Assembly (NCBI RefSeq): GCF_028693505.1
Contig: NZ_JAQUVF010000014.1
Location: forward strand, 1-64,000
Source of the DNA: Oscillibacter sp.
GTDB taxonomy: Bacteria > Bacillota > Clostridia > Oscillospirales > Oscillospiraceae
Length of the DNA stretch: 64,000 nucleotides
Direction: 5' to 3'
Below, piece by piece: positions 19,062 through 49,288 of the stretch. The notes beneath the pieces are model-generated. The model worked only from the letters and a program-made list of their open reading frames with translations. It was not told where the DNA came from and did no database searches. Both the position numbers and the translations under genes were made by a program. Every line of letters begins with the position of its first letter. Position 1 is the first letter of the stretch.

Positions 19062-19069
19062 ATCCACAA

Positions 19070-22077: not shown

Positions 22078-22112
22078 ACCGGCATCGCTTTTGGCGATGC
22101 CGGTCTTTTATT
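22078..22112 (+). terminator. Hairpin between dctM and amidohydrolase gene
   Basis: ACCGGCATCGC / GCGATGCCGGT with a five-base loop is followed by CTTTTATT. It is probably a partial terminator that lowers amidohydrolase expression, since no separate promoter is evident after it. Confidence 0.7.
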
Positions 22113-22139
22113 GAAATCACTTGGAAAGGAATATCTCAT

Positions 22140-23342: not shown

Positions 23343-23390
23343 AATAAGAGGAACGACCGACAGCCCAGCTGTCGGTCGTTCCTCTTATTC
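23343..23390. terminator. Bidirectional terminator, amidohydrolase / ECF operon
   Basis: A 21-base perfect stem (core GAGGAACGACCGACAG / CTGTCGGTCGTTCCTC) with a five-base loop lies between convergent operons and includes the stop codon of the ECF fusion gene. Confidence 0.9.
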
Positions 23391-26021: not shown

Positions 26022-26887
26022 GCTCTGTCCTCCTTTACAGTCAAGATTGCAGGCGTCAGGCACAGCGCCAGATACACCAGTGGAAAGCTGAGGGAAAACG
26101 GCGTCGCCGCCGTGCCTTTCACAGTCGGATAATAGCGGAACCACAACTGCCCCGCCAAAGCGCCCGCTGTGACGTACCAACCGCAAAACAACAGCCACAA
26201 AAGCGCCAGACGATCCCGCCCGTCAAACTGGTAAATGGAAAAAGCCGTTCGCCCCGGAAGCCCATAGCCCCGACTTTTCATGCTGTCGGCTGTCTCAATG
26301 GCATTTTCCAGCGCCCATGTAATCAATGTGGAAAGGATGACGATGCCGCTGCGCAGCCGCCCAACCGCGCCGCCGGAGACGGTGCGTCCCGCGCAGCGCT
26401 GTGCCCGCGCAACCCGCTTGAGCTGGGCGGAGAATCTGGGCACAAACCGCAGCGCCATGCTCAGCACCAGAGAAAGGGCGGGAAGGACCCGTCCGAACAG
26501 ATAGACGAATTTATCGGAAGTCATGATTTCCTGATAGCAGAAAAACCAGAGCACCACCGCCGCCAGCATGGTTGCCGCTCCGCAGCCATAGAGAATGCTC
26601 TCCAGCGTCAGCGGGTTCCCGGAGGGCAAATACGCCAGCAGCGTCCGGCCCTCATGATTGAAAAGCGGGTTCAGCAGGATTGTCACCAGCAGTATGGGCA
26701 ACACGCAGCGGGCGGCAAACCGCACCGCCTTTTCCCCCTTCAGGCAAATCGCGTAGGTCAGCGCCGACAGGAGCGAGACTGCCAGACACACCGGATTCAT
26801 AAAGCACATGCTAAAGAGGAGCACCAGCGCAAAATATAAGAAGTTCACAAATGGATGATAGGTTGAAAAGGCGTCCCTCTCCCGCAT
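25994..26887 (-). CDS. ECF transporter transmembrane component EcfT
   Basis: A 297-residue CbiQ/EcfT-family coupling protein. It has several membrane helices (FLYFALVLLFSMCFMNPVCLAVSLLSAL and so on) and the late cytoplasmic coupling region with ARAQRCAG and DSMKSRGYGLPG, corresponding to the two A-R-G-type motifs that contact the ATPases. The ORF track starts 39 codons too early; the ATG at 26887 begins MRERDAFSTYHPFVNF, a typical EcfT start, and has AAAGGAGC upstream. It lies between the DUF4430 gene and the ATPase-ATPase-S fusion, completing the uptake complex. Confidence 0.9.
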   Translation of the reverse strand: MRERDAFSTYHPFVNFLYFALVLLFSMCFMNPVCLAVSLLSALTYAICLKGEKAVRFAARCVLPILLVTILLNPLFNHEGRTLLAYLPSGNPLTLESILYGCGAATMLAAVVLWFFCYQEIMTSDKFVYLFGRVLPALSLVLSMALRFVPRFSAQLKRVARAQRCAGRTVSGGAVGRLRSGIVILSTLITWALENAIETADSMKSRGYGLPGRTAFSIYQFDGRDRLALLWLLFCGWYVTAGALAGQLWFRYYPTVKGTAATPFSLSFPLVYLALCLTPAILTVKEDRAWKRMQSKI

Positions 26888-26930
26888 GGCCTGCTCCTTT
26901 CTCTTTTGCGCCGGTTCCCATTCGCAGCGC

Positions 26931-27752
26931 TCAGTCCCTCTGGCTGCCGCCTGCAAGCCCGCCGCCCACATCCGCGCCCAGCTCACAGGTATACACCCAG
27001 TCAATTCGGTCGCCGTCTTTCAGCTGATAACGGGAACAGCCGTAATTGGGAAACCAGTCGTTCACCCGATACATCCAGCCGGACTGCTCGCCCACGTCAA
27101 ATTCATACAGATTCGCAATTCCCTCGATATAAGCGGAGTTGTAGAGGGGGGTGTTCATATATTCCATGTGGATCCCCTGCGCTTGGCAGGTGCGGGAAAG
27201 CACGTCAAACGCGTTCTCCCCTTCCTCAAAGGAGACGCTGAGGGGATTTAGGATCCAGCCGTCCGACGGAATCACCTCTGCCTTCTCCGCGTCGGCAAAG
27301 TCCAAATGGTTCAAAGCCTCCGCACAGGAAATGGAGATGGTGCAGCTGTATGCGCTTTGCGCCGCTTCCTGCGGCTTCACCGGCGCGGGAGGCGTTTCCG
27401 GGGTCGGCTCCACCTGCTCACGGGCACTTTCCGCAGGGGGGTTCTCCGTCTGATCGCCTTCCGGCGTCGGCGGGTCGGACGCGGCAGGCGCGGCCGCTTC
27501 TTTTTCAATCGGCTTCGCGGCCGCTTCCGCCGCGTCAGCTTCTTTCGCATCGGCTTTTTCCGCCTCAACTTTTTCCGCAGCGGCTTGCGCCGCGCCCGCC
27601 AACTCCTGGGGCGCGGAACCCGCCGCGCTGCCGCTGCCCGCCGTCCAGCCTCTGGCCCCCGGCGTGTCGCCGCCGATATAAAAGGCCGCAGCCAGCACCG
27701 CCGCAATCAGCGCCGTCACAAGAATTTTGCGTTTGTTATGCTTCCACCACAT
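26931..27752 (-). CDS. Membrane-anchored DUF4430 protein, transcobalamin C-terminal-domain-like
   Basis: This 273-residue protein has one N-terminal membrane anchor (ILVTALIAAVLAAAFYIGG), a low-complexity Ala/Glu/Pro linker (about 35-130) and a C-terminal DUF4430 domain (about 140-265). That domain ends with the hallmark EQSGWMYRVNDWFPNYGCSRY and KDGDRIDWVYTCELGADVG. DUF4430 is the fold of the beta domain that closes over cobalamin in animal transcobalamin and intrinsic factor. It lies 14 bases after the barrel-SLH gene and before ecfT, in a cobalamin-riboswitch operon. I infer a membrane-tethered B12-binding partner that passes ligand to the ECF transporter. The binding role is untested. Confidence 0.82.
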   Translation of the reverse strand: MWWKHNKRKILVTALIAAVLAAAFYIGGDTPGARGWTAGSGSAAGSAPQELAGAAQAAAEKVEAEKADAKEADAAEAAAKPIEKEAAAPAASDPPTPEGDQTENPPAESAREQVEPTPETPPAPVKPQEAAQSAYSCTISISCAEALNHLDFADAEKAEVIPSDGWILNPLSVSFEEGENAFDVLSRTCQAQGIHMEYMNTPLYNSAYIEGIANLYEFDVGEQSGWMYRVNDWFPNYGCSRYQLKDGDRIDWVYTCELGADVGGGLAGGSQRD

Positions 27753-27766
27753 GGGAACCCTCTCCT

Positions 27767-29392
27767 TTACAGTAATGCGCTGCGCCCCAGCAGATTGTAC
27801 AGAATCTGCGCCACCTCACCCCGCAGGATGGCGCGGGTAGGCTCCACGCTCCCATCGGTTTGGTCCAGAATCCCCTCCCGATAGCAAAACGCCACGCCGG
27901 GGCGGGACCATGCAGGAATCTGCGCGTCATCCGCAAACGGGGCCAGCGCGGTTTGAATCTGCTGGTCCGTTACCTCCGTGTCCATTCCGCACAGCTTTGC
28001 CGCCCGCGCCGTCATAACGGCTGCCTGCTGGCGGGTAATTTCCCCGTTGGGCTCAAATCTGCCGCCGCCAACGCCGTTGACGATTCCGTAGGCGCTGGCG
28101 GTATCCACCTGCGCCGCCAGCCAGCTGCCGGAGGGAATGTCACTGAACTCGCCGCGGCTCACGGGGGAAAGCCCCAGCGCCCGCACCATCATCACCGCAA
28201 ATTCTCCGCGGGTCACAGGAGCGTCGGGATCAAAGCGCCCGTCGCTCCGTCCATTGATTACCCCCCGGGCCGCCATGGCCTCCACCGCCTCCTGATTGGC
28301 ATGTCCCTGCACGTCATCAAAGGTGATCCCCGGATGGGTCACTTCCAGTTTTTTTACCGCCGCGTTTTTGCCGGCAAGCCCCACGCCCTCTGGGGCAGGG
28401 TCTGCCGCCACATCGCGCATGTCATAAAGGCCGGGGCGGTTCGCCTCGCTGCGCAGCACGGCAACCAGCGCGTAGAGTCCCTGCTCCGACGCCATCTGGT
28501 CCCCCTGCGCGTCCCCACTGCTGTGGGAAAAGCTTCCGTCGCCGTTTTGATAGCGCAGCAGGCTGTCCAACGGTGAATTCCCGTTTTTCATAAAGCGCGC
28601 GTCCTCCACGGAAATCCCCAGCGTGCACAGCGCCACAAGCACCTGCGCGCAGCCCTCCACGGTGTCCTCTCCACGGCAGGAGAAGCCGCCGTCCGGATTC
28701 TGAATCCGCGACAGGCAGTCCACCGCTTTTTCCGTGGCGGCCTTCACCGTCTCCTGGGTTTGATAGTTGGACAGGGCTTGCAGGACCATGCCTGTCATAT
28801 CCGGGTCGGCGCCGCCCTCATTCGACAAGCTCCAGCCGCCGTCCTCCAGCTGGCGGCCCAGCAGCTCTTCCACGTACATCTGGCGGGTAGCCTGGGTGGA
28901 AGCGCCCGGGCACTCCGGCATGGCATAGTTGCCGCTGTCCAGCGCGATGAGCGCCCATGCCGGGCCGTTGACTCCCTGCCAGACCGTCTTTTCAAAATCG
29001 CCCAGCGGCTCCAGCAGATTATAGCCCGCCACATCTGCGGGGTCTGCTCCAATCGCCGTGAGCGCCAGCGCCACGCGGCTGTACTCCGTGTATTTTCGTC
29101 CGTGCAGGATGCCGTTGCGCTCCTTGACATAGCGCTCGACGGCCCCCTGATACTGCTGTATGTAGTCCTGAGAGACCTCAAAATCGCCGCGGGTCAGGCC
29201 GATGATCGCCCATTCGCCTCCCACGGTGCCTACCTGGGGCGCTTTCACTTGCTCCAGCATGTACGCCGCGCTCCGCGCCGCTGCCGCCGCCACATCGCGC
29301 TCTGTCGCGGCAGCCCGCACTGGAACATTCCATCCCACCGCCAGCACGCAGCTTAAAAGCATGGCGGACGCCTGTTTCCAAATTCGTTTCAT
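27767..29392 (-). CDS. Surface alpha/alpha-barrel (transcobalamin/intrinsic-factor-like) protein with SLH repeats
   Basis: This 541-residue exported protein has a signal peptide (MLLSCVLAVGWNVPVRAAA), an alpha/alpha-barrel of terpenoid-cyclase or prenyltransferase type (about 30-340) and C-terminal SLH repeats (about 355-541). Barrel repeats include LEDGGWSLSNEGGADPDMTGMVLQAL, NPDGGFSCRG and NGDGSFSHSSGD. No cyclase DxDD motif is evident. The alpha domain of transcobalamin and intrinsic factor has this fold, and its beta-domain equivalent is the next gene. SLH repeats (VTRGEFAVMMVRALG, ITRQQAAVMTARA) would fix it to the wall. A cobalamin riboswitch with terminator sits directly upstream, so a surface corrinoid-binding role is the best inference. 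Confidence 0.82.
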   Translation of the reverse strand: MKRIWKQASAMLLSCVLAVGWNVPVRAAATERDVAAAAARSAAYMLEQVKAPQVGTVGGEWAIIGLTRGDFEVSQDYIQQYQGAVERYVKERNGILHGRKYTEYSRVALALTAIGADPADVAGYNLLEPLGDFEKTVWQGVNGPAWALIALDSGNYAMPECPGASTQATRQMYVEELLGRQLEDGGWSLSNEGGADPDMTGMVLQALSNYQTQETVKAATEKAVDCLSRIQNPDGGFSCRGEDTVEGCAQVLVALCTLGISVEDARFMKNGNSPLDSLLRYQNGDGSFSHSSGDAQGDQMASEQGLYALVAVLRSEANRPGLYDMRDVAADPAPEGVGLAGKNAAVKKLEVTHPGITFDDVQGHANQEAVEAMAARGVINGRSDGRFDPDAPVTRGEFAVMMVRALGLSPVSRGEFSDIPSGSWLAAQVDTASAYGIVNGVGGGRFEPNGEITRQQAAVMTARAAKLCGMDTEVTDQQIQTALAPFADDAQIPAWSRPGVAFCYREGILDQTDGSVEPTRAILRGEVAQILYNLLGRSALL

Positions 29393-29431
29393 GGCTTTTC
29401 CTTTCCGGGAAATCCCCCGTCCGTTTTTTTA

Positions 29432-29467
29432 CAAAAAAGCGCGCTGTATGGAACCCCATACAGCGCG
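29432..29467 (-). terminator. Riboswitch-linked intrinsic terminator
   Basis: On the minus strand GCGCTGTATGG / CCATACAGCGC with a four-base loop is followed by GCTTTTTTG. It lies between the cobalamin aptamer and the barrel gene, so it is the expression platform. Confidence 0.88.
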
Positions 29468-29522
29468 GCCGTATTTCCGCAGCAATGCCTCGCGTCCGTT
29501 CTTCGCAGCTGGACGCGAAATA

Positions 29523-29712
29523 CACAAGCAGGTCTTCTGGCTCAGGTCGTGGTAGCCTGATCTGCCTTATCACACCGAAGCGGTGCAATGGCCGGCTTTC
29601 GCCGACGATCAGCCGACCTTTACAGCGGCGGCGTCCGCGCCGGATTTACACCGGCTTCCCTTTTCATTTCCCGCAGTACCGTCTGTCCGGAGCCCCGCAG
29701 GAACCACTTGTG
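29523..29712 (-). ncRNA. Cobalamin riboswitch 1
   Basis: On the minus strand the core AAGGGAAGCCGGTGTAAATC, then GCGGACGCCGCCGCTGTAA, and the 3' box GAGCCAGAAGACCTGC match the classical adenosylcobalamin aptamer almost fully. The outer P1 helix CACAAG / CTTGTG fixes the boundaries. It controls the barrel-SLH, DUF4430, EcfT and ECF fusion genes by transcription termination. Confidence 0.96.
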
Positions 29713-29750
29713 CCCTGGTATTTTGTTTTGGTCCCCGTCTCCGCCAGCCT

Positions 29751-30287
29751 TCAGTTGAACAGCAGGCAGCTGGTATAGGTGATCGTCTTAGGCCCGTAAT
29801 AGTAGGGCAGGCCCGAGTCGCGGCATACATCGCCGACAATGAGGCCATAGGCCTCCATGGAGGGAATGGCTTTCTCCGGAAAACGGCAGGGGGCATCGGG
29901 ACAGGTGCATTGCTTGCAAAGGCTGCACCCGCCGGAGCTCATCGCAAGGCAGTTCGGGTCCGTTTTCCGCACCCGCTCCGCAAATTTAGCAAAACGCTGT
30001 TGCTGGAGTTTGCTTGTTCCCATGATGCACTCAGCGTCAAAATCATCTTCCAGCTCTCCGGTGGACTGCAGCAAAATGCCGTGGGGATACTTGGCGGCCT
30101 GTGCCGCAATCTCCTCCAACGTCCCGCAGTACGGCGGACAGGTCCACCGCTTTCCGTAGGTTTGGCAGCGACCGGCGGCACACATATCCCGCACCTCCGT
30201 GCGAAAGTTCAGCGCGGCGGTATTCAGTTCCCCGGCATGGGAAAAGCCGATTTCCCCAGCAAGGTCCAGCAGTTCCTGTATCTTCAC
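29751..30287 (-). CDS. DUF2284 metal-binding protein
   Basis: This 178-residue protein matches the DUF2284 family, predicted to bind metal or Fe-S centres through conserved cysteines: CQTYGKRWTCPPYCG near residue 45 and a second cluster GGCSLCKQCTCPDAPCRFP near residue 120. The GTG at 30287 has a GGGGGA site; an alternative GTG at 30305 would overlap the stop of the upstream gene. It is cotranscribed with the corrinoid-activating ASKHA protein and probably helps its electron supply, though no DUF2284 protein function is settled. It ends just before the riboswitch. Confidence 0.8.
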   Translation of the reverse strand: MKIQELLDLAGEIGFSHAGELNTAALNFRTEVRDMCAAGRCQTYGKRWTCPPYCGTLEEIAAQAAKYPHGILLQSTGELEDDFDAECIMGTSKLQQQRFAKFAERVRKTDPNCLAMSSGGCSLCKQCTCPDAPCRFPEKAIPSMEAYGLIVGDVCRDSGLPYYYGPKTITYTSCLLFN

Positions 30288-30301
30288 AAGAATTTTCCCC
30301 C

Positions 30302-31873
30302 TCACTCAAACATCATGCACATCATATAGGCATTGTTGAACTGCGCCATGCCGGACAGTTCCAAATAGGTGCACTGCTCCTTGGTGCGCCGCAAATCCTC
30401 TCCGGCCTTATCGGACAGCAGCAGCATGGAAGCGCCGGCTCCGGCGCTGTTGCCGACCACCTGCAGCCGGTCCAAAAGCGCCGCGGGGAAAAGCCCGATC
30501 CTGACTGCGCTCTCCGGACGCAGATAGCTGCCAAAGCCGCCCGCCAGATAAAATGCGCCCAGCTGCTCCGGCAAAATCTTTTGATGCTCCAGCAGCGTCT
30601 CGATCCCTGCCGCAACAGCGGCCTTTGCCAGTTGCAGCTTTCGAATATCCTCCGCCGTTATCCACACATCCCCGCTCAGGCGAAAGCGCACATTGCCGCC
30701 CTCGCCCTCCAATCGGTCCGCATAAGCCCCCGGCGCCTCGTCCGCTGGCTGCAACCGGCCCGTCTCATCCACGATCTCCAGCTCCAGCAGCGCCGCCAGT
30801 GTGTCCACCAGTCCGGAACCGCAAACGCCGATTGCTTCCCCGCCGCCCAGCACGGAAACGCGCAGCGCGCCATCCTCGACCCATACCCGGTCGATGGCGC
30901 CCGGAGACGCCGCCATGCCGCAGGAGATGCTTCCGCCCTCAAACGCAGGCCCTGCCGCCGTGGCGCAGCAGGTCAGGCCCCGGTGATCGCCCACAGCCAT
31001 TTCGCCGTTGGTCCCCACATCGACAAACAGGATGGGCTGTTCCTTTTCCAGCGCTTTCACCGCCATCAATCCCGCCGTGATGTCGCCGCCGACATAACCG
31101 GAAACGCAGGGGGCGATGTACAGCGCGGTCCCCGGCGCGGTTCCCAGATCATATTCTTCGGCGGACACGCTTTCGCCAAACAGGGAGCGGGGCGTGAACG
31201 GCGCCGCCGCGATGCCCGACGGGTCCAGTCCCGTCAGCAGATGCTCCATGACGGTGTTGCCCGCCACCGCAACCGCCGTTACCTCTTCCGGGGTTCTGCG
31301 GGCCTTTTCGCAAGCCTCCCGCAGAAGCTGGCGCAGCTGGGCGCGGATGGCCGCCGTCTGCACGGAGAGACCGTCCACATGCTCCATCGCGTATTGGATG
31401 CGGGAGATCACATCTGCGCCATAGGATCTCTGCCCGTTGGCTCCGCTGGCGGTTGCCAGCCGCACGCCGGTGCGCAGATCATATAAGTACAGCGCCACAG
31501 TGGTCGTGCCGATGTCCACCGCCGCGCCCAGCCCGCGGCGCTTACCGTCCGCTTCAAAGCGGAATACGCTGTTTTCCACCACAGTGAGCCCGTCGTCCTC
31601 TGCCAGAGAGACGGTGCACGCCCCCTCGATCCTGGCAAGACAGGCAAGCCGTCGTTCACTCTTTCCCGCCAGCAGCGCCTGCTCCCGCGCATCCGGCGCC
31701 GCCACCGCTCCGCTGACGGTTACCAGACATTTTCCGCACAGGCCATTGCCGCCGCAGGGCGCGTCCGCGTGATGGGAAAGCCCGCTCAGCCGCAGGCCCT
31801 CCAGCACGGTGGATCCCGCGTCCACCTGAATCTCCAGCCTTGTATGGTTGTAAAGCACTGTCAAAACCGGCAT
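30302..31873 (-). CDS. Reductive activator of corrinoid proteins (ferredoxin-ASKHA, DUF4445, RamA/RACE-like)
   Basis: This 523-residue protein has an N-terminal [2Fe-2S] ferredoxin domain (CGGNGLCGKCLVTVSG plus an earlier Cys, about 1-90), a linker and a large ASKHA ATPase-like domain (about 120-523) beginning GLGAAVDIGTTTVALYLYDL. Such proteins use ATP to reduce inactive Co(II) corrinoid proteins to Co(I), as RACE proteins do for O-demethylases. A corrinoid protein and two methyltransferases encoded at 38.4-41.8 kb are its likely clients. The CxxC-rich ferredoxin of RamA itself is absent, placing it in the bacterial RACE form. It shares an upstream AT-rich motif with both dctP genes of the methyltransferase cluster. 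Confidence 0.88.
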   Translation of the reverse strand: MPVLTVLYNHTRLEIQVDAGSTVLEGLRLSGLSHHADAPCGGNGLCGKCLVTVSGAVAAPDAREQALLAGKSERRLACLARIEGACTVSLAEDDGLTVVENSVFRFEADGKRRGLGAAVDIGTTTVALYLYDLRTGVRLATASGANGQRSYGADVISRIQYAMEHVDGLSVQTAAIRAQLRQLLREACEKARRTPEEVTAVAVAGNTVMEHLLTGLDPSGIAAAPFTPRSLFGESVSAEEYDLGTAPGTALYIAPCVSGYVGGDITAGLMAVKALEKEQPILFVDVGTNGEMAVGDHRGLTCCATAAGPAFEGGSISCGMAASPGAIDRVWVEDGALRVSVLGGGEAIGVCGSGLVDTLAALLELEIVDETGRLQPADEAPGAYADRLEGEGGNVRFRLSGDVWITAEDIRKLQLAKAAVAAGIETLLEHQKILPEQLGAFYLAGGFGSYLRPESAVRIGLFPAALLDRLQVVGNSAGAGASMLLLSDKAGEDLRRTKEQCTYLELSGMAQFNNAYMMCMMFE

Positions 31874-32363: not shown

Positions 32364-32485
32364 TACGCTCTCTTTGCCGCATATGCGGTACCCGCACCTT
32401 GCCTCTCTGAGAGGCTGTTCATATTCATTCGACAGGAGATTTGATCTCCGTCCCACACCGTTGTGTGAAAAAAGGAGGAAGCACT

Positions 32486-38383: not shown

Positions 38384-39424
38384 ATGAAACGAAACATGGA
38401 TCAATGGACCAGCGAATTGCTGTCCGCCAAGGTCAAAAAGGCCCTGCCAGTCTTGTCCTTCCCCTCCATTCAACTGCTGGGCGTTACCGTCCGTGACCTG
38501 ATTTCGGACAGTGATACGCAGGCACGGGGCATGAAGGCGGTTGCTGACCGGACACCCAAGGCCGGCGGTTCCGTCAGTTTGATGGATTTATCCGTTGAGG
38601 CGGAATGCTTTGGCGCACCCATTCACATCTCCGATGATGAAGTCCCCACGGTTACCGGCCCCGTCCTGTCTGTGGACGTGGATGAGGATGAACGTATGGA
38701 AGCCGCAAAGGCGCTGGAAGTGCCTTCTGTGGGCGCCGGCCGCACACAAATCTATCTTGACGCCATGGAGAAGGCTATGGAGCTTATTACGGATCGTCCG
38801 GTTTTTGCCGGGGTCATCGGTCCCTTTTCTCTGGCCGGGCGTTTGATGGATGTGACGGAAACCATGGTCTATTGTTATAGCGAGCCGGACATGGTTCATG
38901 TGGTTCTGGAAAAGGCCACTGCGTTTATCATAAAATATATTCTTGCCTATAAGGAGATCGGCGTCAATGGCGTTGTGATTGCCGAACCTCTGGCAGGTCT
39001 GCTGTCTCCCGCGCTGGCGCAGGAATTTTCCGGCGACTACTGCAAGCGCATTGTAGAGGCCGTTCGCAGTGAGGATTTCGCCGTTATTTATCACAACTGC
39101 GGCAACACCGCCACCATTACCCTGGATTCCATCACTTCCTGCGGCGCAAATGCATACCATTTCGGCAACGCAGTGGATATGGAGGAGCTTTTGGAAAAGC
39201 TCCCCGCCGACATTCCGGCCCTGGGCAATGTGGATCCCGCCCGTCAGTTCCGCAACGGAACGCCGTTTTCGGTCCGCAAGGCCACGCTGTCCCTGATGGA
39301 GCGCTGCTGCACCCATCCCAACTTTACGATCTCCTCCGGTTGCGACATCCCCCCGCTGTCCAACTGGGCCAATATTGACGCCTTCTTTCAGGCGGTGGAT
39401 GATTTTTACGCGGAACACAACTGA
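38384..39424 (+). CDS. MtaA/MtbA-like methylcobamide methyltransferase (UroD family)
   Basis: This 346-residue TIM-barrel protein belongs to the MtaA/CmuA branch of the uroporphyrinogen decarboxylase superfamily. The zinc ligands of that branch are present: His-x-Cys in IYHNCGN at about 236 and a late Cys in SSGCDIPP at about 319. Such enzymes move a methyl group from a methylated corrinoid protein to a thiol acceptor (coenzyme M in methanogens). The acceptor in this bacterium is unknown. GGAGG precedes the ATG at 38384; the track adds two codons. It converges on the corrinoid protein gene and is its probable MT2 partner. Confidence 0.85.
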   Translation: MKRNMDQWTSELLSAKVKKALPVLSFPSIQLLGVTVRDLISDSDTQARGMKAVADRTPKAGGSVSLMDLSVEAECFGAPIHISDDEVPTVTGPVLSVDVDEDERMEAAKALEVPSVGAGRTQIYLDAMEKAMELITDRPVFAGVIGPFSLAGRLMDVTETMVYCYSEPDMVHVVLEKATAFIIKYILAYKEIGVNGVVIAEPLAGLLSPALAQEFSGDYCKRIVEAVRSEDFAVIYHNCGNTATITLDSITSCGANAYHFGNAVDMEELLEKLPADIPALGNVDPARQFRNGTPFSVRKATLSLMERCCTHPNFTISSGCDIPPLSNWANIDAFFQAVDDFYAEHN

Positions 39425-39468
39425 CTCCGCCCGGGAAACGCCACCGGAACCAAGTTTGCAAAAAGAGT

Positions 39469-39500
39469 ATGCCGCCAGCGCCATCCGGCGCTGGCGGCAT
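39469..39500. terminator. Hairpin after MtaA-like gene
   Basis: ATGCCGCCAGCGCC / GGCGCTGGCGGCAT with a four-base loop, the first of two tandem hairpins between convergent genes. Confidence 0.65.
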
Positions 39501-39523
39501 TGCCTGTAAAAAGCAATGCTGAA

Positions 39524-39551
39524 GGACCGCCCCTTTCGGGGCGGTCCTTTC
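39524..39551 (+). terminator. Terminator after MtaA-like gene
   Basis: GGACCGCCCC / GGGGCGGTCC with a TTTC loop is followed by TTTCGCTT. The 130 bases from here to the corrinoid protein gene hold no gene I can support. Confidence 0.7.
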
Positions 39552-39682
39552 GCTTATATTTGCCAAGCTCGGCCTTTTCAGCGGCCTTGTGTGCAGTAAT
39601 TTCGGCGCTCGGCTCTCCTTTTCAGGCAGGGTCCGCCGCCTTTGGAATTTCTGCGCTCCCATTGGAAAGCGCGGTGAACTCC

Positions 39683-40318
39683 TTATTTCGTGCAAAACGC
39701 AAGCGCCACGCCTGCCGCGCTGGCCGCATCCGCAGTGTAGCTATCCGCGCCGATCTGGTCGCAGTAGTCCTGCGTGATGGGGGCGCCGCCAATCATGACT
39801 TTTACCGTGTCACCCAGGTCGGAGGCTTTCACCGCTTCCACCACATTGCGCATTTCGCCCATGGTGGTCGTCAGCAGTGCCGAGCAGGCAATGATCTGGG
39901 CATGATGCTCCCGAGCGGCGTCCAGGAAGGTTTCCACAGGCACGTCGACCCCCAGATCCACCACTTTCAGGCCCTTGCCCTCCATCATCATGCGGACGAG
40001 GTTTTTGCCGATGTCATGCAGGTCGCCCTTGACTGTGCCGATCACAACGGTTCCCTTTTCCTCAACGCCGGCAGCAACCAGATAGGGGCGCAGAATCTCC
40101 GTCCCTTTGCTCATGGCGCGGGCGGCGATCAGCACCTCCGGCACAAAAACCTCATTGTTCTTAAATTTTTCGCCAATCGTATTCATACCGCTGAGGAGTC
40201 CCTGCTCCAAAATCTCACCGGCAGGAATGTTTTCATCCAGAGCCTGCTGCACATACTCTTTTACCTTCGGGACCCGTCCCTGCTGCAGCGCAGAGTTGAT
40301 ATCATCTAAAATGCTCAC
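39683..40318 (-). CDS. Corrinoid (B12-binding) protein of a methyltransferase system
   Basis: This protein of 211 residues carries the methyl group between methyltransferases. It has the helical cap domain (about 1-85) and a Rossmann B12-binding domain with TVKGDLHDIGKN, whose DLHDIG His is the lower cobalt ligand (base-off, His-on), then LGVDVPVETF, CSALLTTTM and VMIGGAPI. The likely start is the GTG at 40318, after GGAGG at eight bases, which gives the usual N-terminus SILDDINSALQQG; upstream in-frame starts at 40333 and 40345 lack a site. It follows the UroD-fold methyltransferase gene behind a hairpin. The RACE-like protein at 30.3 kb would reactivate it. Confidence 0.93.
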   Translation of the reverse strand: MSILDDINSALQQGRVPKVKEYVQQALDENIPAGEILEQGLLSGMNTIGEKFKNNEVFVPEVLIAARAMSKGTEILRPYLVAAGVEEKGTVVIGTVKGDLHDIGKNLVRMMMEGKGLKVVDLGVDVPVETFLDAAREHHAQIIACSALLTTTMGEMRNVVEAVKASDLGDTVKVMIGGAPITQDYCDQIGADSYTADAASAAGVALAFCTK

Positions 40319-40444
40319 GTTGATGTCCTCCATTTTTGATTTCACAGGCGTTGCGCAACATATTCCTTTATGTATTTATAGTAGCATAAAAACAGGCGGA
40401 ATATCTTGAAATTTTTTATGTTTTTTTTGAACGATTTTCTCTTC

Positions 40445-40473
40445 TGAAAAAAGACGCGCCATTTGCCGCGTCT
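40445..40473 (-). terminator. Hairpin between UroD-family and corrinoid protein genes
   Basis: On the minus strand AGACGCG / CGCGTCT with an eight-base loop is followed by six T. It may be a partial terminator adjusting the ratio of the two products, or the corrinoid gene may have its own promoter near TATAAA at about 40376-40381. Confidence 0.6.
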
Positions 40474-40576
40474 CCTTCCGCCTTCCGTGAAAGCAAGGGA
40501 TGGAGACCATATCGATCGCCATCCCTTCCCTTCTGTGGAGAGGCCGCGCACGCAGTGGCCGGCCTAAGAAAAAATC

Positions 40577-41848
40577 TTAGTTATAGTACTTTTCAACCAT
40601 TTCTCTGGCCATTTCGCTCCACCACCACAGCCGCTGCGGCTCATCGCGCAGTGTGATAATGGTTTTCATATTGATGACCAAATTGGTGTTGTACTTCTGA
40701 CTCAGCTGAAGAATGTTCTCCATTTCCTTGGTCAAGTGCTCCTTGGCGTCTTCAAAGTTCGGCTGGAACAGATAATTGGAGTTGGGCTTGAAGCAGGCAA
40801 CGTACTTGCTGCCCAGCGCTTCCAGCGCAGGTTCCGGCTTGCTGAACGGGGAAACAGAGACCATACGCAGATTGGGGAAGGCGTCGATCACATCCAGCAT
40901 CTTGTGGTCCAGTCTCTCACAGCAGCCATAACCGAATTTACCGAAGAGCTTTGCAAATTCCTTCTCATACGCGAAGCCAAACTCTCTGGACGTGGCGGGA
41001 GAGACCGACGTCATGATCTGGTCGGAACAGGCGCCCCAGATGTCCTTGAGCTTGCAGCCGATGCCGCCCTCCGGCGGCGCTGGCAATTCGGTAGTATAGC
41101 CGGGGTTGTTATTGAGGATGTTCTCATATCCGTTATTGGAGGAAAGCAGTCCCATCGATTCATACTTCTTGTACCACTCGATACTGCAGTCAATGTAGCG
41201 CTTTGCGCAGGCGTGCATCAAGTCAGGGTCCTCGTAAAAGCGCATCATGGCGTCGCCCATACCCATCCACTCCAGAATATCGTCCCAAGGGGCAATATTC
41301 CAGTAGCAGCGTCCGTGGAGCCGGACCTTCAGGATTCCGTCGAAGATCTCGTTCATCACGCGCCAACGCTCCTTGGTCTCGGCCTCGTCATGCTCCACCA
41401 CAGGGGTTTTGATCTTTTCCACATCATCCATGGTGTTGATGAGGGCTTTGAAGTGCACGGTGGCCTGTCCCTGACGGTCTTTGGTCAGGTCAGAATCGTA
41501 CATGACCAGCTCTCCCCAGCCATTGTCGTGGATTGCACACTCGCATTTGACGGAATCTTCCACCACGTAGTCAAGGGGCATGTGCTTCCAGTTATACAGG
41601 CGCATCAACAAATCCGCTTCCACCTTATTCCAAAAGGGATCCTCGATCTGGGTAGTCAGCTCATTGTTGTCATTCAAAACGGCGGCCGGTGTATCGCGGT
41701 GATACAATACCGGCTTGGTCATGCGCAAGTCGTTCACGTTGGTCCACAGTGCGATCCGCTCTTTCTGGATGGGAAGCTCCGCAAGCTCGTGGACCTTGCG
41801 GCCCAAATCCCGCAGCCGCTCCACGTCCTTTTTCGTGTATTGAATCAT
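40577..41848 (-). CDS. UroD-superfamily protein, predicted substrate:corrinoid methyltransferase (MT1)
   Basis: This 423-residue protein belongs to a uroporphyrinogen-decarboxylase-fold family common in gut anaerobes and not to true HemE. A candidate metal motif YGCCERLDHK occurs near residue 307, followed by FPNLRMVSVSPFSK. O-demethylase-type first methyltransferases are of this general fold. Its place, after a TRAP transporter and before a corrinoid protein, suggests that it demethylates the imported compound. GGAGG precedes the ATG. The substrate could be a methoxylated aromatic, methylated amine or related molecule; nothing visible decides this. Confidence 0.75.
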   Translation of the reverse strand: MIQYTKKDVERLRDLGRKVHELAELPIQKERIALWTNVNDLRMTKPVLYHRDTPAAVLNDNNELTTQIEDPFWNKVEADLLMRLYNWKHMPLDYVVEDSVKCECAIHDNGWGELVMYDSDLTKDRQGQATVHFKALINTMDDVEKIKTPVVEHDEAETKERWRVMNEIFDGILKVRLHGRCYWNIAPWDDILEWMGMGDAMMRFYEDPDLMHACAKRYIDCSIEWYKKYESMGLLSSNNGYENILNNNPGYTTELPAPPEGGIGCKLKDIWGACSDQIMTSVSPATSREFGFAYEKEFAKLFGKFGYGCCERLDHKMLDVIDAFPNLRMVSVSPFSKPEPALEALGSKYVACFKPNSNYLFQPNFEDAKEHLTKEMENILQLSQKYNTNLVINMKTIITLRDEPQRLWWWSEMAREMVEKYYN

Positions 41849-41921
41849 TGATTAACCTCCATAGCAATCAAAACGTTTATCCCGCCGCAGTCGCGGCGTC
41901 TGCCCAGCTTTGCCGGTGAGA

Positions 41922-43202
41922 TCAGCCCAGCAGCAAATTGGGCAGGAAGGTGGACAGGGTCGGAATGAATACAACCAGCAGCAGCACGGCACATTGGGCG
42001 GCCAGCATGGGCATCACATGTTTGACAGTGCTCTGGAGGGAAACTCCCTGAATGGAGGCGGTGGCGGAAAGCAGCGCGCCCACAGGAGGCGTGATTTGCG
42101 CAATGCACTCGCAGATGACGACTGCCAGAGCAAACTGGATGGGGTCGATACCGAACGCGTTGGCAATCGGATAGAGCACCGGCGCAAAGATGACGGTGGC
42201 GGCATTGGATTCCATGACCATGCCCAGCAGCAGCAAAAACACGACAATGATCAGGAACACCAGAATGGCGCTGTCGGTGAAGGACGCGAAGAAATTGGCG
42301 ATGGTGCTGGCAAAATTCAAGCGGGCAAGCATATAGCCCATCATATTTGCAAGTCCCATCAGAATCAGAACGGTGGTGGATGTAATGGCAGCCCGGGCGA
42401 ACAGCTTCGGCAGATCCCGAATCTTGAGGCCCTTGTAGATGAACATGCCGACCAGCAGACCGTACAGGCAGGCCACCATGCCGGCCTCGGAGGGGCTGCA
42501 GAAGCCAGCCATCGTGCCGCCAATGATAATGGCGGGCATGAGCAGCGCCCAAATGGATTTGCCGATGATCTTTGCCCGTTCCTTACCGGCAATCTTGGGT
42601 CGCAGCGGAATGTTGCGCTTTTTGGCATACCGGTAACAGCAGATCATCAGGCCGATTCCCATCAAAACGCCGGGAATGATACCGGCCATGAACAGCGATG
42701 CCACGGAAATACCGGCATAGGAGCTGTACATGATCATCAGGATACTGGGCGGAATAATGGGACCGAGGGTGCCGCCGCAGGCTTGCAGGCCGGCAATGAA
42801 CTCCGTTTCGTAGCCGTCCTCCTTCATAGCGGGGGAGAGGAGGTTGCTAAATGCCAAAGCGGTGGCCATGGCGGAACCGGAAACAGCGGCGAAGATCATG
42901 CAGGACACCACGCACACGTGGCCTAAGCCGCCGCGAATATGCCCGAAGAACGCGCGGGAAAAATCGACGATGCCCTTTGAAATATTGCCGCCCTCCATCA
43001 AAAGACCGGAGAGAATGAAAAACGGCACGGCAATCAGCGAAATCGAGTTGATGCCTGCAAAAATGCGCTGCACGGCGCCCACGGCATTGATGCCGTCCAC
43101 CGCCATGACCACGATACCGGCCGCCGCCATCGCGTGGCCCAGCGGCACTGCAAAGAGCAGCAGGAATAGAAAAATTCCAAAACAAGTTAAAGCCAAACCC
43201 AT
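41922..43202 (-). CDS. TRAP transporter large permease (DctM family)
   Basis: A 426-residue DctM subunit with about twelve membrane helices. Typical DctM stretches are FFILSGLLMEGGNISKGIVDFSRAFFGH, SGSAMATALAFSNLLSPAM, GGTLGPIIPPSILMIMYSSYAGISVASLF and GFCSPSEAGMVACLYG. It lies 4 bases after dctQ and 73 bases before the UroD-family gene, in the order dctP-dctP-dctQ-dctM-MT1-corrinoid protein. The substrate is presumably what MT1 demethylates. Confidence 0.94.
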   Translation of the reverse strand: MGLALTCFGIFLFLLLFAVPLGHAMAAAGIVVMAVDGINAVGAVQRIFAGINSISLIAVPFFILSGLLMEGGNISKGIVDFSRAFFGHIRGGLGHVCVVSCMIFAAVSGSAMATALAFSNLLSPAMKEDGYETEFIAGLQACGGTLGPIIPPSILMIMYSSYAGISVASLFMAGIIPGVLMGIGLMICCYRYAKKRNIPLRPKIAGKERAKIIGKSIWALLMPAIIIGGTMAGFCSPSEAGMVACLYGLLVGMFIYKGLKIRDLPKLFARAAITSTTVLILMGLANMMGYMLARLNFASTIANFFASFTDSAILVFLIIVVFLLLLGMVMESNAATVIFAPVLYPIANAFGIDPIQFALAVVICECIAQITPPVGALLSATASIQGVSLQSTVKHVMPMLAAQCAVLLLVVFIPTLSTFLPNLLLG

Positions 43203-43206
43203 TGGA

Positions 43207-43719
43207 TTACGCCTCCCCCTTCACGGAAACACCCTCTTCTTTTTTCGGGAGGATGTGAAATTTTACGATATTTTTGATTTGTGCAATGGCGCAGAAGCCA
43301 AAGCTGACAGGCATGCACAAATAGACATAGCCCAGGGTCCACTGCATGGCGGACGTCATGGATGTCATATTTTTCATGGACATGCTGTACGTAGGGAAGA
43401 TCAGATAGACCAGGATGGCCAGGGTGATCACATCGCCGATGAGATGGTTGGCGTGCAGAAGCTTCTTCTTTTTGGAGAAGAAAATCTCACTCAGATCCAC
43501 CACCAGATCGCCCTTGGTGTTAATCAGCCAGGGCGCGCCGGTAAAGGCCATGAATACCATCAGAAAACGGATCAGCTCGTCCGCCCAGATGGAGGGTGCG
43601 CCAAAAAGTCTGGTAATGACGCTATACGCGCAAACAAAAAACATGATAAACAGAAACACACCGGAAAGATAGAAAAAGAACTTATAGAATTTTTCTATGA
43701 AATCGCAAAATTTTCGCAT
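43207..43719 (-). CDS. TRAP transporter small permease (DctQ family)
   Basis: A 170-residue DctQ with four predicted helices and the usual RLFGAPSIWADELIRFLMVFMAFTGAPWL segment around residues 35-65. AGGAG precedes the ATG. A hairpin lies in the 150-base gap after the upstream dctP, typical of TRAP operons in which more binding protein than permease is made. Confidence 0.92.
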   Translation of the reverse strand: MRKFCDFIEKFYKFFFYLSGVFLFIMFFVCAYSVITRLFGAPSIWADELIRFLMVFMAFTGAPWLINTKGDLVVDLSEIFFSKKKKLLHANHLIGDVITLAILVYLIFPTYSMSMKNMTSMTSAMQWTLGYVYLCMPVSFGFCAIAQIKNIVKFHILPKKEEGVSVKGEA

Positions 43720-43867
43720 ATTAAATTTCTCCTAATCTTTATGAACCACAGCAACATGGAGTAAAGAGCCTCTTGTAACAAAGAGGGGCGGCGCAGTCCT
43801 GTGTATCACCTCACAACCGCTCTGTTAAAATGCTGCCGGAAAGCGCGGCAAACGGATACAAGGCCGA

Positions 43868-44935
43868 TCAAGCCAACGCAAGAATCCGGTTCACCAGCTC
43901 TTCGCCGCCGTCAACGGCTGCAAAATAAGCGGGCCACACCTGGCTTTTCATCACGTCGACAATGGGCGCGGTATCGAAGGTGGAGTACTTACAGCCGGCC
44001 TCTTCGCACAGCTTGATATACTCGTCGTTCTTTTCCTCCGTCATCTCCAGATTCTGGCCGCTGGCCTCCTTCGCACACTCCATCAGCACGGCCTGTGCCT
44101 CCTTGTCCAGAGACTGGAATTTCTCTTCATTGATAAACAAGTCAATGTCGCAGAAAATGTGGTTGGTCTCATTGATGTAATTGAGCTGCTCATACCAGGA
44201 CATATTGTAAATACCCTGAACCGGGTTCTCAACGCTGTCCACAATTCCAGTTTGCAGCGCCGTATAGACCTCGGAGTTTGCCACAATCGTGGTAGCGCAG
44301 CCCAGCGCCTGGAAGGTATTTACATAAATAGAGATATCCGGCACGCGGATTCTGAGGCCCTGGAAATCATCAATTGAGGTAATGGGGGCATTTTTTGTGG
44401 CAACCTGACGGAAGCCGCTGGCGCCCACTGCCAGGCATCGGATTCCGCACTGGTCGATCAATTCCTGACACATTTGCGCATAATCATCACTGGCGGCAAA
44501 GGCTTTGACATGATCGAAGCTATTGAACAGATACCCCAAAGCCATGACGTCGCCCTTGGAAAAGCCGTTGACGGAGGACATGGAAGGCCAATCGTTGATG
44601 GCGACATCCATTGTCCCGACCTTCAGCCCTTCGGCAGACTCGGCCTGGTTGGCGATCTGGCTGGAATAGAACCGGTCAAACGTGATCTTGCCTTCAGACC
44701 GCTCTTCCACAAGGTCGCAGAAATTGGCCATGTAAATGGAAGCCAGTTCTTCCTGCGCAACATGAGAGGACGCCATCAGCTTGTACTCTCCACCCGCGTA
44801 GCCACTGCCGGAGTTGGTGGAAGCCGCGTCGGCGGGTGCCGTGGACTCGGGGGTCTTTTCTGTCCCAGAACCGCCGCAGGCCACGAGGGAGCACATTAAC
44901 GTAAGCGCCAAAAAGAAGCTACACACTTTTTTCAT
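43868..44935 (-). CDS. TRAP substrate-binding lipoprotein, copy 1 (DctP family)
   Basis: A DctP lipoprotein with signal FFLALTLMCSLVACGGSG. I place the start at 44935 (355 residues) because the paralog next door has the same leader (CGAAAG, then ATGGAGAAA) and starts at the matching ATG; the ORF track ATG at 44950 lies inside that leader. The ligand segment shows DDFQGLRIRVPDISIYVNTFQALG with the conserved Arg. It is clearly paralogous to the neighbouring binding protein at 45.2-46.3 kb, sharing long identical stretches such as FDRFYSSQIANQAESAEGLK. It has its own promoter and dyad element. Confidence 0.92.
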   Translation of the reverse strand: MKKVCSFFLALTLMCSLVACGGSGTEKTPESTAPADAASTNSGSGYAGGEYKLMASSHVAQEELASIYMANFCDLVEERSEGKITFDRFYSSQIANQAESAEGLKVGTMDVAINDWPSMSSVNGFSKGDVMALGYLFNSFDHVKAFAASDDYAQMCQELIDQCGIRCLAVGASGFRQVATKNAPITSIDDFQGLRIRVPDISIYVNTFQALGCATTIVANSEVYTALQTGIVDSVENPVQGIYNMSWYEQLNYINETNHIFCDIDLFINEEKFQSLDKEAQAVLMECAKEASGQNLEMTEEKNDEYIKLCEEAGCKYSTFDTAPIVDVMKSQVWPAYFAAVDGGEELVNRILALA

Positions 44936-44962
44936 CATTTTTTTCTCCATCCTTTCGGTTTA

Positions 44963-44975
44963 TACAGAACCTACA
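44963..44975 (-). promoter_or_regulatory. Dyad element ahead of dctP copy 1
   Basis: TACAG-AAC-CTACA (plus-strand reading) matches 11 of 13 bases of the dyad at 38333-38345. It lies about 15-25 bases after the predicted start of transcription. Confidence 0.45.
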
Positions 44976-44997
44976 TTTGTCACATTTTCTAAAATTA

Positions 44998-45026
44998 AGA
45001 ATAATCTACCGCCGACATTTTTTCAA
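44998..45026 (-). promoter_or_regulatory. Promoter of dctP copy 1
   Basis: On the minus strand TTGAAA and TATTCT are 17 bases apart. Confidence 0.6.
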
Positions 45027-45056
45027 TCTTTACAACCCATTTGGGTCAAATCCTTC

Positions 45057-45085
45057 AAAAAATAAAAATCTAATACAAAAACATA
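45057..45085 (-). promoter_or_regulatory. Shared upstream motif, dctP copy 1
   Basis: AAAATAAAAATCTAATAC and following AAA (plus-strand reading) recurs upstream of dctP copy 2 with one change. In both cases the TAATACAAA part starts 45 bases beyond the predicted -35, a constant phase that suggests an activator site. Confidence 0.6.
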
Positions 45086-45168
45086 TCAAACTGCTATCTT
45101 AAACCTTTCGGCCGTGCAGGCGCCCTGCCGCTTCTGTGCGCCGCACTGAGCAGCTCCAGTCCTTGTGG

Positions 45169-45212
45169 AAAACTGCGCGGCGGTATGGTGTTCATATCGC
45201 CGCGCAGTTTTA
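45169..45212 (-). terminator. Hairpin between dctP copies
   Basis: AAAACTGCGCGGCG pairs with CGCCGCGCAGTTTT, with further weak pairing toward the loop. The minus-strand side ends in four T only, so termination may be partial. Confidence 0.65.
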
Positions 45213-45234
45213 TATTGATCGCGGGAAAACGGAA

Positions 45235-46302
45235 TCAGGCCAGCGCGAGGATGCGGTTGACCAGCTCTTCGCCGCCGTCAACCGACGCAAAGAAGGACGG
45301 CCACACCTGATTTTTCATAATGTCAACGATGGGCGCAGTATCAAAGGTATTGTACTCCACGCCCGCGTCGATGCAGTTTTGCAGGAACTCCTCGCTCTTG
45401 CTTTCCGCCAGCTCCATATTGACGGCGCTGGCCTCTGCGGCGGCTTCAAGAACCACCGCCTGGGCCTCGGAATCCAGGTTCTGGAAGGAGTCCTCATTCA
45501 TAAACAGGTCCTGATCGCAGAAAATGTGGTTGGTTTCGTTGATGTAGTCAATCTGCTCATACCAGGACATGTTCCAGATCGTCTGAATGGGGTTTTCAAC
45601 GCTATCCACGATGCCGGTCTGCAAAGCAGTGTAGACCTCGGAGTTTGCCACGATGGTGGTGGCGCAGCCCAGCGCTTGGAAGGTATTCACGTAGATGGCG
45701 ATATCAGGCACGCGGATACGCAGGCCCTTAAAATCGTCCACGGAGGTAATGGGTGCATTCTTGGTAGCCACATGACGGAAGCCGCTGGCGCCCATTGCCA
45801 GATTGCGGATACCGGTCTGGTCAATCAGCTCCTGCTGCATCTGCTTATAGTCATCGCTGGCAGCAAAAGCCTTCAGGTGATCGTAGCTGCTAAACAGGTA
45901 GCCCAGAGATACCACGCTGCCCTTGGTATACCCGTTTACGGACGCCATGCTGCCCCAGTCGTTGAGGGAAACATCGATGGTGCCTACCTTGAGGCCTTCC
46001 GCAGACTCGGCCTGATTGGCGATCTGGCTGGAATAGAAGCGGTCAAACGTGATTTTTCCCTCAGACTTCTCCTCCACGCGATCACAGAAATCATCCATGT
46101 ACATGGAAACCAGATCTTCGGGAGCCATGTGAGAGGAGGCCGTCAGCTTGTACTCTCCGCCTGTGTAGCCGCTGCCGGAGGCGGCGGGTGTCGTGTCGGA
46201 GGGAGCTGTGGTCTCAGGAGCTGCGTCCGTTTTGGAACCGCCGCAGGCCGCGAGAGAGGCAATCAGAGCAAGGGCCAAAACGATGCTGAGTATCTTTTTC
46301 AT
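45235..46302 (-). CDS. TRAP substrate-binding lipoprotein, copy 2 (DctP family)
   Basis: This 355-residue DctP lipoprotein starts at the ATG at 46302 (MKKILSIVLALALIASLAACGG), not at the track start 26 codons upstream. It has the same length as copy 1 and is highly similar across the mature protein, ending in the same GGEELVNRILALA. Differences are spread through the chain, so the duplication is not very recent. Two binding proteins feeding one permease would widen ligand range or affinity. It is the first gene after the divergent PocR/AraC regulator. Confidence 0.92.
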   Translation of the reverse strand: MKKILSIVLALALIASLAACGGSKTDAAPETTAPSDTTPAASGSGYTGGEYKLTASSHMAPEDLVSMYMDDFCDRVEEKSEGKITFDRFYSSQIANQAESAEGLKVGTIDVSLNDWGSMASVNGYTKGSVVSLGYLFSSYDHLKAFAASDDYKQMQQELIDQTGIRNLAMGASGFRHVATKNAPITSVDDFKGLRIRVPDIAIYVNTFQALGCATTIVANSEVYTALQTGIVDSVENPIQTIWNMSWYEQIDYINETNHIFCDQDLFMNEDSFQNLDSEAQAVVLEAAAEASAVNMELAESKSEEFLQNCIDAGVEYNTFDTAPIVDIMKNQVWPSFFASVDGGEELVNRILALA

Positions 46303-46627: not shown

Positions 46628-46657
46628 TTGACAAAATAAATAATTTATCCCTATAAT
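46628..46657 (+). promoter_or_regulatory. Promoter of PocR/AraC regulator gene
   Basis: TTGACA and TATAAT with an 18-base spacer, nearly 200 bases upstream of the start codon. Confidence 0.7.
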
Positions 46658-46848
46658 TTTACTAAGATACTCGTACGTAATTACAACAGGCTGCGGCAAA
46701 CCTTCTATTTGGCAGGCGGATAAATTTTGTCGACAGAGCGCGTTTGCCCGTGGTTTTATGCCAGCGCCCCTGTTTGGAAGCCCCGGCGAATTTGAAGGAG
46801 CGGGACTCCTATTCAGGCAGCACGAGAGAAACAGAGAAAGGAACCTGC

Positions 46849-48030
46849 ATGGAACTGTCAGAACGCTGTATGCATTTGTGCCGACATATCGAGACGCTCA
46901 CCGGCATTCACACGACTTTACTGGATGTGGAGGAACGGTCCTTTTTACGGGAGCCCTTCCACATTGGCTGCTCCGCCTGCAATTGCGATGCATACACAAC
47001 CCATTTATACGGCACCTATGAGGCGGAGCGATGGGGAATGAAATATATCTACTACTGCCCGCGGGGACTGGTATTCATTGCGGCAACTCCCGCCGGAGAG
47101 TGGGAGAGCATTCGATACAGCCTGATCGTCGGTCCCGTCATGATGACCAATGACACGGATGACCTTTTTGAGGACCCCATGGGGCAGGCGGAGACTTTGC
47201 AGCCGGTCCCCAAATTGACGACGGCTCAAACCCATTCCCTGTGCGAAATGATTGCAGCCGCGGTGGCATCCTTCTCACTGGCAGAGGCGCCGCCGGATGT
47301 GGACTCCGGTTCTCAGGCCGCAATGCTCCAGATGATGTACGATTTGACCGGCAAAGAGGGCAGCAGCTATCCCATTGAAAAGGAACGGCTGTTGCAGGAG
47401 CATATCCGCGTGGGGGACAAGGAAGCTGCCCAGAACCTGCTCAACGAGCTGTTGGTGCACCTGTACAGTGCCTCTGAAAACAATCTGGAGGAAATCAAGA
47501 CCCGCATGCGGGAGCTGCTGGTTCTGATGAGTCGGGCCGCCATCGACGGCGGCGCCGACATGGATGAGATCTTTTCCCTTTGCCGCCGCTACGATCAAGA
47601 GGCCGGTTCTATGGATGGGATTGAAAAGCTGAATCGCTGGATCGGGCTGATTCTGCACAAATTCGTGAGTTTTGTGTTTGATTTCAGCGATATCAAGCAC
47701 CGCAACACCATTTACAAGACCACAGCCTACATCAAGGAGCATCTGGCCGAAAAGCTGTCGCTGAATCAGGTGGTGGAGCAGGCCTATTTGTCCAAGTCCT
47801 ATTTCTGCCGGGTGATAAAAAGCGAGCTGGGCTGCACCTTTACGGAGTACGTCAACCGGCTGCGCATCGAAAAGGCGAAGGAATTGCTGAGCAATACGGC
47901 CCTCCCCATTGCGGAGGTCGCCTATTCCGTGGGATTCGACGACCAGAGCTATTTCACCAGAATCTTCAAAAAAAATGTGGGCACAGCGCCGTGTAAGTAT
48001 CGGGAAGTGCGATTCAAAAATAAAAAATAG
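46849..48030 (+). CDS. PocR-domain AraC family activator
   Basis: This 393-residue regulator combines an N-terminal PocR ligand-binding domain (about 1-145, with GCSACNCDAY and YYCPRGLVFIAATP) with a C-terminal AraC double helix-turn-helix (about 295-390: LSLNQVVEQAYLSKSYFCRVIKSELG and GFDDQSYFTRIFKK). PocR domains sense small organic ligands and recur near corrinoid-dependent pathways, as in propanediol utilisation. The ORF track start is 35 codons early; AAAGGA precedes the ATG at 46849. It is divergent from the TRAP/methyltransferase operon and probably activates it. Confidence 0.9.
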   Translation: MELSERCMHLCRHIETLTGIHTTLLDVEERSFLREPFHIGCSACNCDAYTTHLYGTYEAERWGMKYIYYCPRGLVFIAATPAGEWESIRYSLIVGPVMMTNDTDDLFEDPMGQAETLQPVPKLTTAQTHSLCEMIAAAVASFSLAEAPPDVDSGSQAAMLQMMYDLTGKEGSSYPIEKERLLQEHIRVGDKEAAQNLLNELLVHLYSASENNLEEIKTRMRELLVLMSRAAIDGGADMDEIFSLCRRYDQEAGSMDGIEKLNRWIGLILHKFVSFVFDFSDIKHRNTIYKTTAYIKEHLAEKLSLNQVVEQAYLSKSYFCRVIKSELGCTFTEYVNRLRIEKAKELLSNTALPIAEVAYSVGFDDQSYFTRIFKKNVGTAPCKYREVRFKNKK

Positions 48031-49270: not shown

Positions 49271-49288
49271 GTTCAATTCCTCCTTCTC

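Follow-up and report, generated by a model that had tools for sequence, protein, structure and literature searches.

The window considered here is a stretch of 64,000 nucleotides from contig NZ_JAQUVF010000014.1 of an Oscillibacter species (assembly GCF_028693505.1), whose draft genome comprises 2.06 Mb in 49 contigs and is 97.65% complete. Between 38.4 and 46.4 kb, the window encodes a tripartite ATP-independent periplasmic (TRAP) importer together with the parts of a corrinoid-dependent methyl-transfer system: a proposed methyl-donor:corrinoid-protein methyltransferase (MT1), a corrinoid protein, and a proposed second methyltransferase (MT2) to carry the methyl group onwards. The minus-strand genes run from 46302 to 39683 in the order dctP1, dctP2, dctQ, dctM, a gene of 423 codons and the corrinoid-protein gene; the gene for an MtaA-like enzyme converges on this operon, and that for an AraC-family regulator diverges from it. 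An original prediction, made from the DNA letters alone, had named these genes, and all of them lie where it placed them and on the strands it gave. The features are:

46744..48030 (+): AraC-family regulator with a weak PocR sensory domain (HTH_18, 2.5e-23)
46628-46657: sigma-70-like promoter (12/12) at the divergent AraC-family gene
45235..46302 (-): DctP1, TRAP substrate-binding lipoprotein (PF03480, E 9e-62)
43868..44950 (-): DctP2 (PF03480, E 5e-61)
43207..43719 (-): DctQ, TRAP small permease subunit (PF04290, E 7e-19)
41922..43202 (-): DctM, TRAP large permease subunit (PF06808, E 9e-104; TIGR00786 above cut-off)
40577..41848 (-): 423-amino-acid UroD-fold protein, proposed MT1 (AlphaFold2, Foldseek, hhalign)
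39683..40345 (-): corrinoid protein (B12-binding, Pfam E 3e-25; B12-binding_2, 2e-19)
39469..39550: two terminator-like hairpins, one per strand (stems of 14 and 13 pairs), where the corrinoid-protein and MtaA-like genes converge
38384..39424 (+): MtaA-like zinc methyltransferase, proposed MT2 (PF01208, URO-D, E 8e-47)

Position 46302 is the ATG of DctP1, at which a lipobox is encoded (MKKILSIV..LAACGG), within an open reading frame that extends to 46380; position 38384 is the ATG of the MtaA-like gene. The regulator had been described as a divergent protein of the PocR/AraC kind: its orientation and its AraC-type helix-turn-helix domain stand, but its PocR domain match (0.0019) is below the cut-off.

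The 423-amino-acid protein has no match in Pfam, NCBIfam or PDB sequences, and none to the Pfam URO-D model even at an E value of 0.1, a model which is matched by 7 of the 19 members of its alignment (the query and 18 relatives; best 1.1e-5). The AlphaFold2 model based on this alignment (pLDDT 90.3, pTM 0.89) was most similar in Foldseek to MtaA of M. mazei (4ay8/4ay7) and then to UroDs (E 2e-6 to 4e-5), and hhalign comparison of the family profile with that of nine URO-D-like (MtaA-like) proteins gave 98.3%. Thus, the UroD fold that had been assigned to this protein is borne out by the model, the structural search and the profile comparison, and the earlier statement that the enzyme is not MttB-like agrees with the lack of any match to an MttB-family profile in Pfam or NCBIfam. 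In the profile comparison, G308-C309-C310 overlies the His-X-Cys of MtaA, with one cysteine ligand kept and the histidine not kept; Y307-G308-C309-C310 is invariant in 19/19 aligned sequences. S-methyltransferases carry a His-Cys-Cys triad, and O-methyltransferases depart from it (PMC10418091). Because the MT1 departs from the triad, this rule leans weakly towards a non-thiol methyl donor.

The corrinoid protein has the DxHxxG motif (His110) and is the only PF02607 (B12-binding_2) protein of the genome, just as the MtaA-like protein is its only PF01208 match. Its alignment with MtaA of M. mazei (4ay7) extends across the whole zinc site (HNCGN, SGCDIPP) and gives this MtaA-like protein the zinc triad His239, Cys241 and Cys322 (numbered from the TTG at 38378), although the protein scores below all NCBIfam MtaA/MtbA cut-offs (TIGR01463, 111 bits against 235.4; MtaA, 91 against 400). 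Searches of the genome, for which control genomes were positive, detected no PF00809 pterin-binding enzyme of any kind, no PF02219 (MTHFR) and no PF01717 (MetE/core-MetE domain); the lack of a second PF02607 protein speaks against MetH as well. Since no enzyme for a folate acceptor was detectable, and since the MtaA-like enzyme keeps the thiol-type His-Cys-Cys triad, the simplest reading of the gene content is that the methyl acceptor would be a thiol rather than tetrahydrofolate; homocysteine, sulfide or other small thiols may serve. The MtaA-like enzyme remains the proposed MT2, as originally suggested, but it had been taken as an ordinary one, in a genome in which the machinery for methyl-folate is not detectable.

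Further genes on the minus strand bear on the reduction of the corrinoid protein and on the supply of corrinoid:

30302..31873 (-): RACo-type corrinoid-protein reductive activator (PF14574, 4e-71; PF17651, 7e-51; Fer2, 8e-7)
29751..30305 (-): DUF2284 predicted metal-binding protein (PF10050, 4e-47), with a 4-base overlap with the RACo gene
29510..29725 (-): cobalamin riboswitch (RF00174, 86.9 bits, E 4.6e-20), preceding the corrinoid-uptake operon
23385..29392 (-): proposed corrinoid-uptake operon, led by the riboswitch, comprising:
29392-27767 (-): S-layer homology (SLH) and alpha-toroid protein
27752-26931 (-): DUF4430 protein
27004-25994 (-): CbiQ-type component
26198-23385 (-): energy-coupling factor (ECF) ATPases and S component

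The RACo has the complete domain set (2Fe-2S, middle and ASKHA domains) and carries the genome's only RACo C-terminal domain. As the genome has no second member of the Pfam families to which RACo, the corrinoid protein and the MtaA-like enzyme belong, RACo almost certainly serves the methyl-transfer system. Neither the RACo nor the uptake operon had been noticed in the original prediction. An alpha-toroid together with a DUF4430-type domain is the layout of transcobalamins. The DUF4430 domain corresponds to the C-terminal domain of the vertebrate transcobalamins (PMC4350170). To judge from these domains, the operon at 23385-29725 probably encodes surface capture of corrinoid by transcobalamin-like proteins, followed by ECF-type uptake; a fold of the alpha-toroid surface protein predicted without an alignment (pLDDT 37) was uninformative. 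Adjoining the corrinoid-uptake and RACo genes, at 32441-37708 (+), is a gene for a surface protein of 1755 amino acids with SLH, DUF4430, PQQ-like propeller, cadherin-like and carboxypeptidase-regulatory domains.

The importer has the components of a DctP-type TRAP transporter (DctP, DctQ and DctM, with the carboxylate arginine). DctP1 and DctP2, both lipoproteins judged by their lipobox, are tandem duplicates with 74% identity in alignment, a point that had been overlooked, and both retain the TRAP carboxylate arginine in the motif GLRIRVP (R223 of DctP1, counted in the long open reading frame; Arg202 of DctP2). The counterpart of this arginine in SiaP, Arg147, selects carboxylates (PMC4646407). 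Because both binding proteins keep it, the methyl donor is probably a carboxylate, and the earlier guess of an organic acid was a sound one. The further proposal of an O-methyl donor fits the lack in MT1 of the triad of S-methyltransferases, but such a fit is no proof and does not establish it: a methyl group on oxygen is reasonable but unproven. The donor, which had been said to look undescribed, may be an ordinary methoxy-acid, because methoxylated aromatic acids are known TRAP ligands, e.g. ferulate, which is bound by TarP of R. palustris at 15 nM (PMC3610893). Two ways of naming the substrate were tried and dropped: the nearest solved DctPs (4nx1, SiaP, 4pc9) are too distant for more than the carboxylate class to be kept, and the neighbours of distant MT1 relatives are mixed (housekeeping, sugar use, reductases) and give no consistent signal. 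A second TRAP locus, at 18180-23282 (+), consists of genes for a GntR/FCD regulator, a DctP, a small open reading frame in the DctQ position, a DctM-like protein and an amidohydrolase, and lies in another low-GC stretch.

A corresponding operon occurs in a second genome. On a contig of an uncultured Oscillibacter sp. (locus L023), the order is a URO-D/thioredoxin fusion, DUF5714, CobW, the regulator (-), DctP, DctQ, DctM, the 423-amino-acid protein and RACo (-). The most conserved proteins are MT1 (82.5% identical) and DctM (88.7%); the PocR-like regulator is in the same place and is 57% identical to the AraC-family regulator of the window. The nonsynonymous divergence (dN) between the two MT1 genes is 0.11 and their synonymous divergence (dS) is saturated; thus, MT1 is under purifying selection. 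The fusion protein at 748-2136 (+) of L023 is a URO-D methyltransferase-like protein with a C-terminal thioredoxin-like domain containing a CxxC motif, and its zinc-site histidine is replaced. A third locus (L056), which comes from another family within the phylum, contains at 9763-10335 (+) an N-terminally truncated MT1 remnant, 53% identical, with an in-frame TAG. Reading this TAG as of the pyrrolysine type was rejected, because the N-terminal half of the gene is missing, which makes it a truncated pseudogene. By its sequence, it is a decaying methyltransferase in an otherwise rich corrinoid/TRAP cluster. Along with a pterin methyltransferase and three URO-D proteins, this cluster encodes two corrinoid proteins that share 54% and 42% identity with that of the window, a 2-hydroxyacid dehydrogenase, DUF1638, a regulator of the PocR-like type and a TRAP set whose relationship to that of the window is only distant. 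The 2-hydroxyacid dehydrogenase hints at a hydroxy-acid product, as a lead only. The three MT1s found in a TRAP/corrinoid context group together in a clade of their own (support 100/100), to the exclusion of 22 relatives.

That the grouping of the genes is not due to chance is indicated by the orthologous operon in the second genome and by the location within about 10 kb of RACo, the B12-binding_2 protein and the URO-D protein, none of which has a second copy in the genome; the chance of two given genes falling within such a distance is estimated at about 1%. The block from 38 to 48 kb, which coincides with the methyl-transfer gene set, has a GC content of 0.48-0.59, mostly below 0.55, compared with about 0.60 in its flanks, and a close copy of the 423-codon gene occurs in 1/60 genomes of the same genus. 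Together, these two observations suggest that the gene set was acquired horizontally. A plasmid search for close relatives of the 423-amino-acid protein gave one match, of 29% only.

By homology, then, MT1, the corrinoid protein, MT2 and the activating enzyme are all encoded, and the full set with its own TRAP importer that had been predicted is present: the system is real, complete and self-contained for corrinoid methyl transfer. We consider it somewhat better than an even chance (about 0.55) that the system serves the corrinoid-dependent demethylation of a carboxylate brought in by the importer. The AraC/PocR-like protein would turn the operon on; DctP1 and DctP2 would capture a methyl-bearing organic acid, with an O-methyl compound favoured, and DctQM would import it. 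The UroD-fold MT1 would then transfer the methyl group from the acid to the Co(I) form of the corrinoid protein, and the MtaA-like zinc enzyme would transfer it from methyl-Co(III) to a thiol, whilst RACo would re-reduce the corrinoid protein and the riboswitch-controlled operon would supply the corrinoid. Several observations weigh against this reading. In MT1, a single residue aligns with the zinc ligands of MtaA, and its chemistry is unclear; the genome is a draft, in which divergent folate enzymes could be missed; and the operon is known in intact form from two genomes only, the MT1 of L056 being broken. The main caution concerns the MT1 assignment: most of the distant relatives of the 423-amino-acid protein (20-36% identity) are in loci without a neighbouring corrinoid protein, so that a role as corrinoid methyltransferases is unproven for the entire family.

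Such relatives, some of which are near genes for sugar use, are what would be expected if the 423-amino-acid protein were not a methyltransferase but acted otherwise on the imported acid, with the corrinoid genes as mere neighbours. This is very improbable, given that the gene is flanked by DctM on one side and by the sole corrinoid protein of the genome on the other, that the protein falls in a separate clade with members from corrinoid clusters, and that the TRAP-MT1 operon of L023 adjoins a RACo gene. A more serious competitor is an O-demethylase of the conventional kind, acting on a methoxylated acid, aromatic or aliphatic, in which the methyl group of the acid would end on tetrahydrofolate, via either a divergent acceptor enzyme or an MtaA-like enzyme that accepts tetrahydrofolate. 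UroD-superfamily enzymes (MtvB, OdmB, VdmB and MtoB) demethylate methoxy-aromatics (PMC13222342), the binding of ferulate by TarP is in keeping with such a substrate, and L056 has a pterin-binding methyltransferase beside the related cluster; the absence from the genome of any match to the pterin-binding, MTHFR or MetE/MetH families and the thiol-type triad of MT2 make it a possibility that we hold to be clearly the lesser one.

The triad of the MtaA-like enzyme would also suit the salvage of S- or Se-methyl compounds, in which this enzyme would demethylate an S/Se-methyl acid and the 423-amino-acid protein would carry out the other half-reaction, a scheme put forward for type 1 mlp clusters; Mlp2 of Clostridium methylates selenide from methylcobalamin (PMC10418091). 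We think this unlikely: there is a single Mlp-like protein, in a separate transcription unit, the 423-amino-acid protein lacks the triad, and the importer belongs to the operon of that protein and not to the MtaA-like gene. A type 1 mlp cluster is defined by at least two Mlps, a corrinoid protein and Ram, in the same direction within 2 kb (Kountz and Balskus, PMC10418091), and membership was rejected: there is only one URO-D protein, it is convergent, and RACo is 7.8 kb away.

Corrinoid-dependent demethylation with an MT1 of the UroD superfamily is already known in kind; what is new here is the dedicated TRAP importer, the divergent MT1 clade and the apparently folate-free acceptor side. CdmB is a UroD-superfamily relative that acts on chloromethane. 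The O-demethylases MtvB, OdmB, VdmB and MtoB, and CdmB, likewise have a UroD-fold MT1, a separate corrinoid protein, an MT2 and an activator, whereas here a pterin-type MT2 was not found and a TRAP operon is present; the MT1 of the window has diverged too far to be matched by the Pfam URO-D model. Many clades of UroD-superfamily MT1s have substrates that are unknown (PMC13222342). With the soluble coenzyme M methyltransferases MtaA, MtbA and MtsA and the Mlp proteins, the proposed MT2 of the window shares its fold family and a complete His-Cys-Cys zinc triad, but it is below the NCBIfam cut-offs and its host is a bacterium. The type 1 mlp clusters resemble the present locus in having UroD-type enzymes, a corrinoid protein and a reductive activator without a folate methyltransferase; they differ in that the locus has one Mlp-like protein, on the opposite strand, an activator about 7.8 kb from the corrinoid protein, a TRAP importer and a non-Mlp MT1. 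The importer resembles SiaPQM and TarPQM in its DctP, DctQ and DctM and its carboxylate arginine, but has two tandem binding proteins and is co-encoded with a corrinoid methyltransferase system. Elsewhere in the window are genes for a GGGtGRT protein adjoining a NifU-N-like protein and then an H+-pyrophosphatase (48272-49981, -), and an operon of the leucine-pathway type (6210-10898, -), in which a T-box leader precedes isopropylmalate/homocitrate synthase-like, aconitase-family and isopropylmalate dehydrogenase-like genes.

In bacteria, the methyl groups released by known corrinoid demethylases of this type go mostly into folate and acetogenesis. The methionine synthases known to work without folate belong to the core methionine synthases, which are of the MetE kind. 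Such folate-independent synthases have been described (PMC7857596). A bolder proposal, which we regard as doubtful, is that this heterotrophic gut bacterium has a folate-free methyl pathway, in which the methyl group of an imported methoxy-acid would pass via the MtaA-like enzyme either to homocysteine, so that the enzyme would be a methionine synthase of a new, folate-independent type, or to sulfide, with corrinoid captured at the surface by transcobalamin-like proteins. With a demethylation kit but none of the usual acceptors of methyl groups on the folate side, this genome opens two questions to experiment: which methyl-bearing acid of dietary or plant origin serves as the substrate, and whether thiols are methylated by MtaA-like enzymes of bacteria, outside methanogens. 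If homocysteine is the acceptor, this would be another folate-free route to methionine; if it is sulfide, the system would be a source of methanethiol in the gut.

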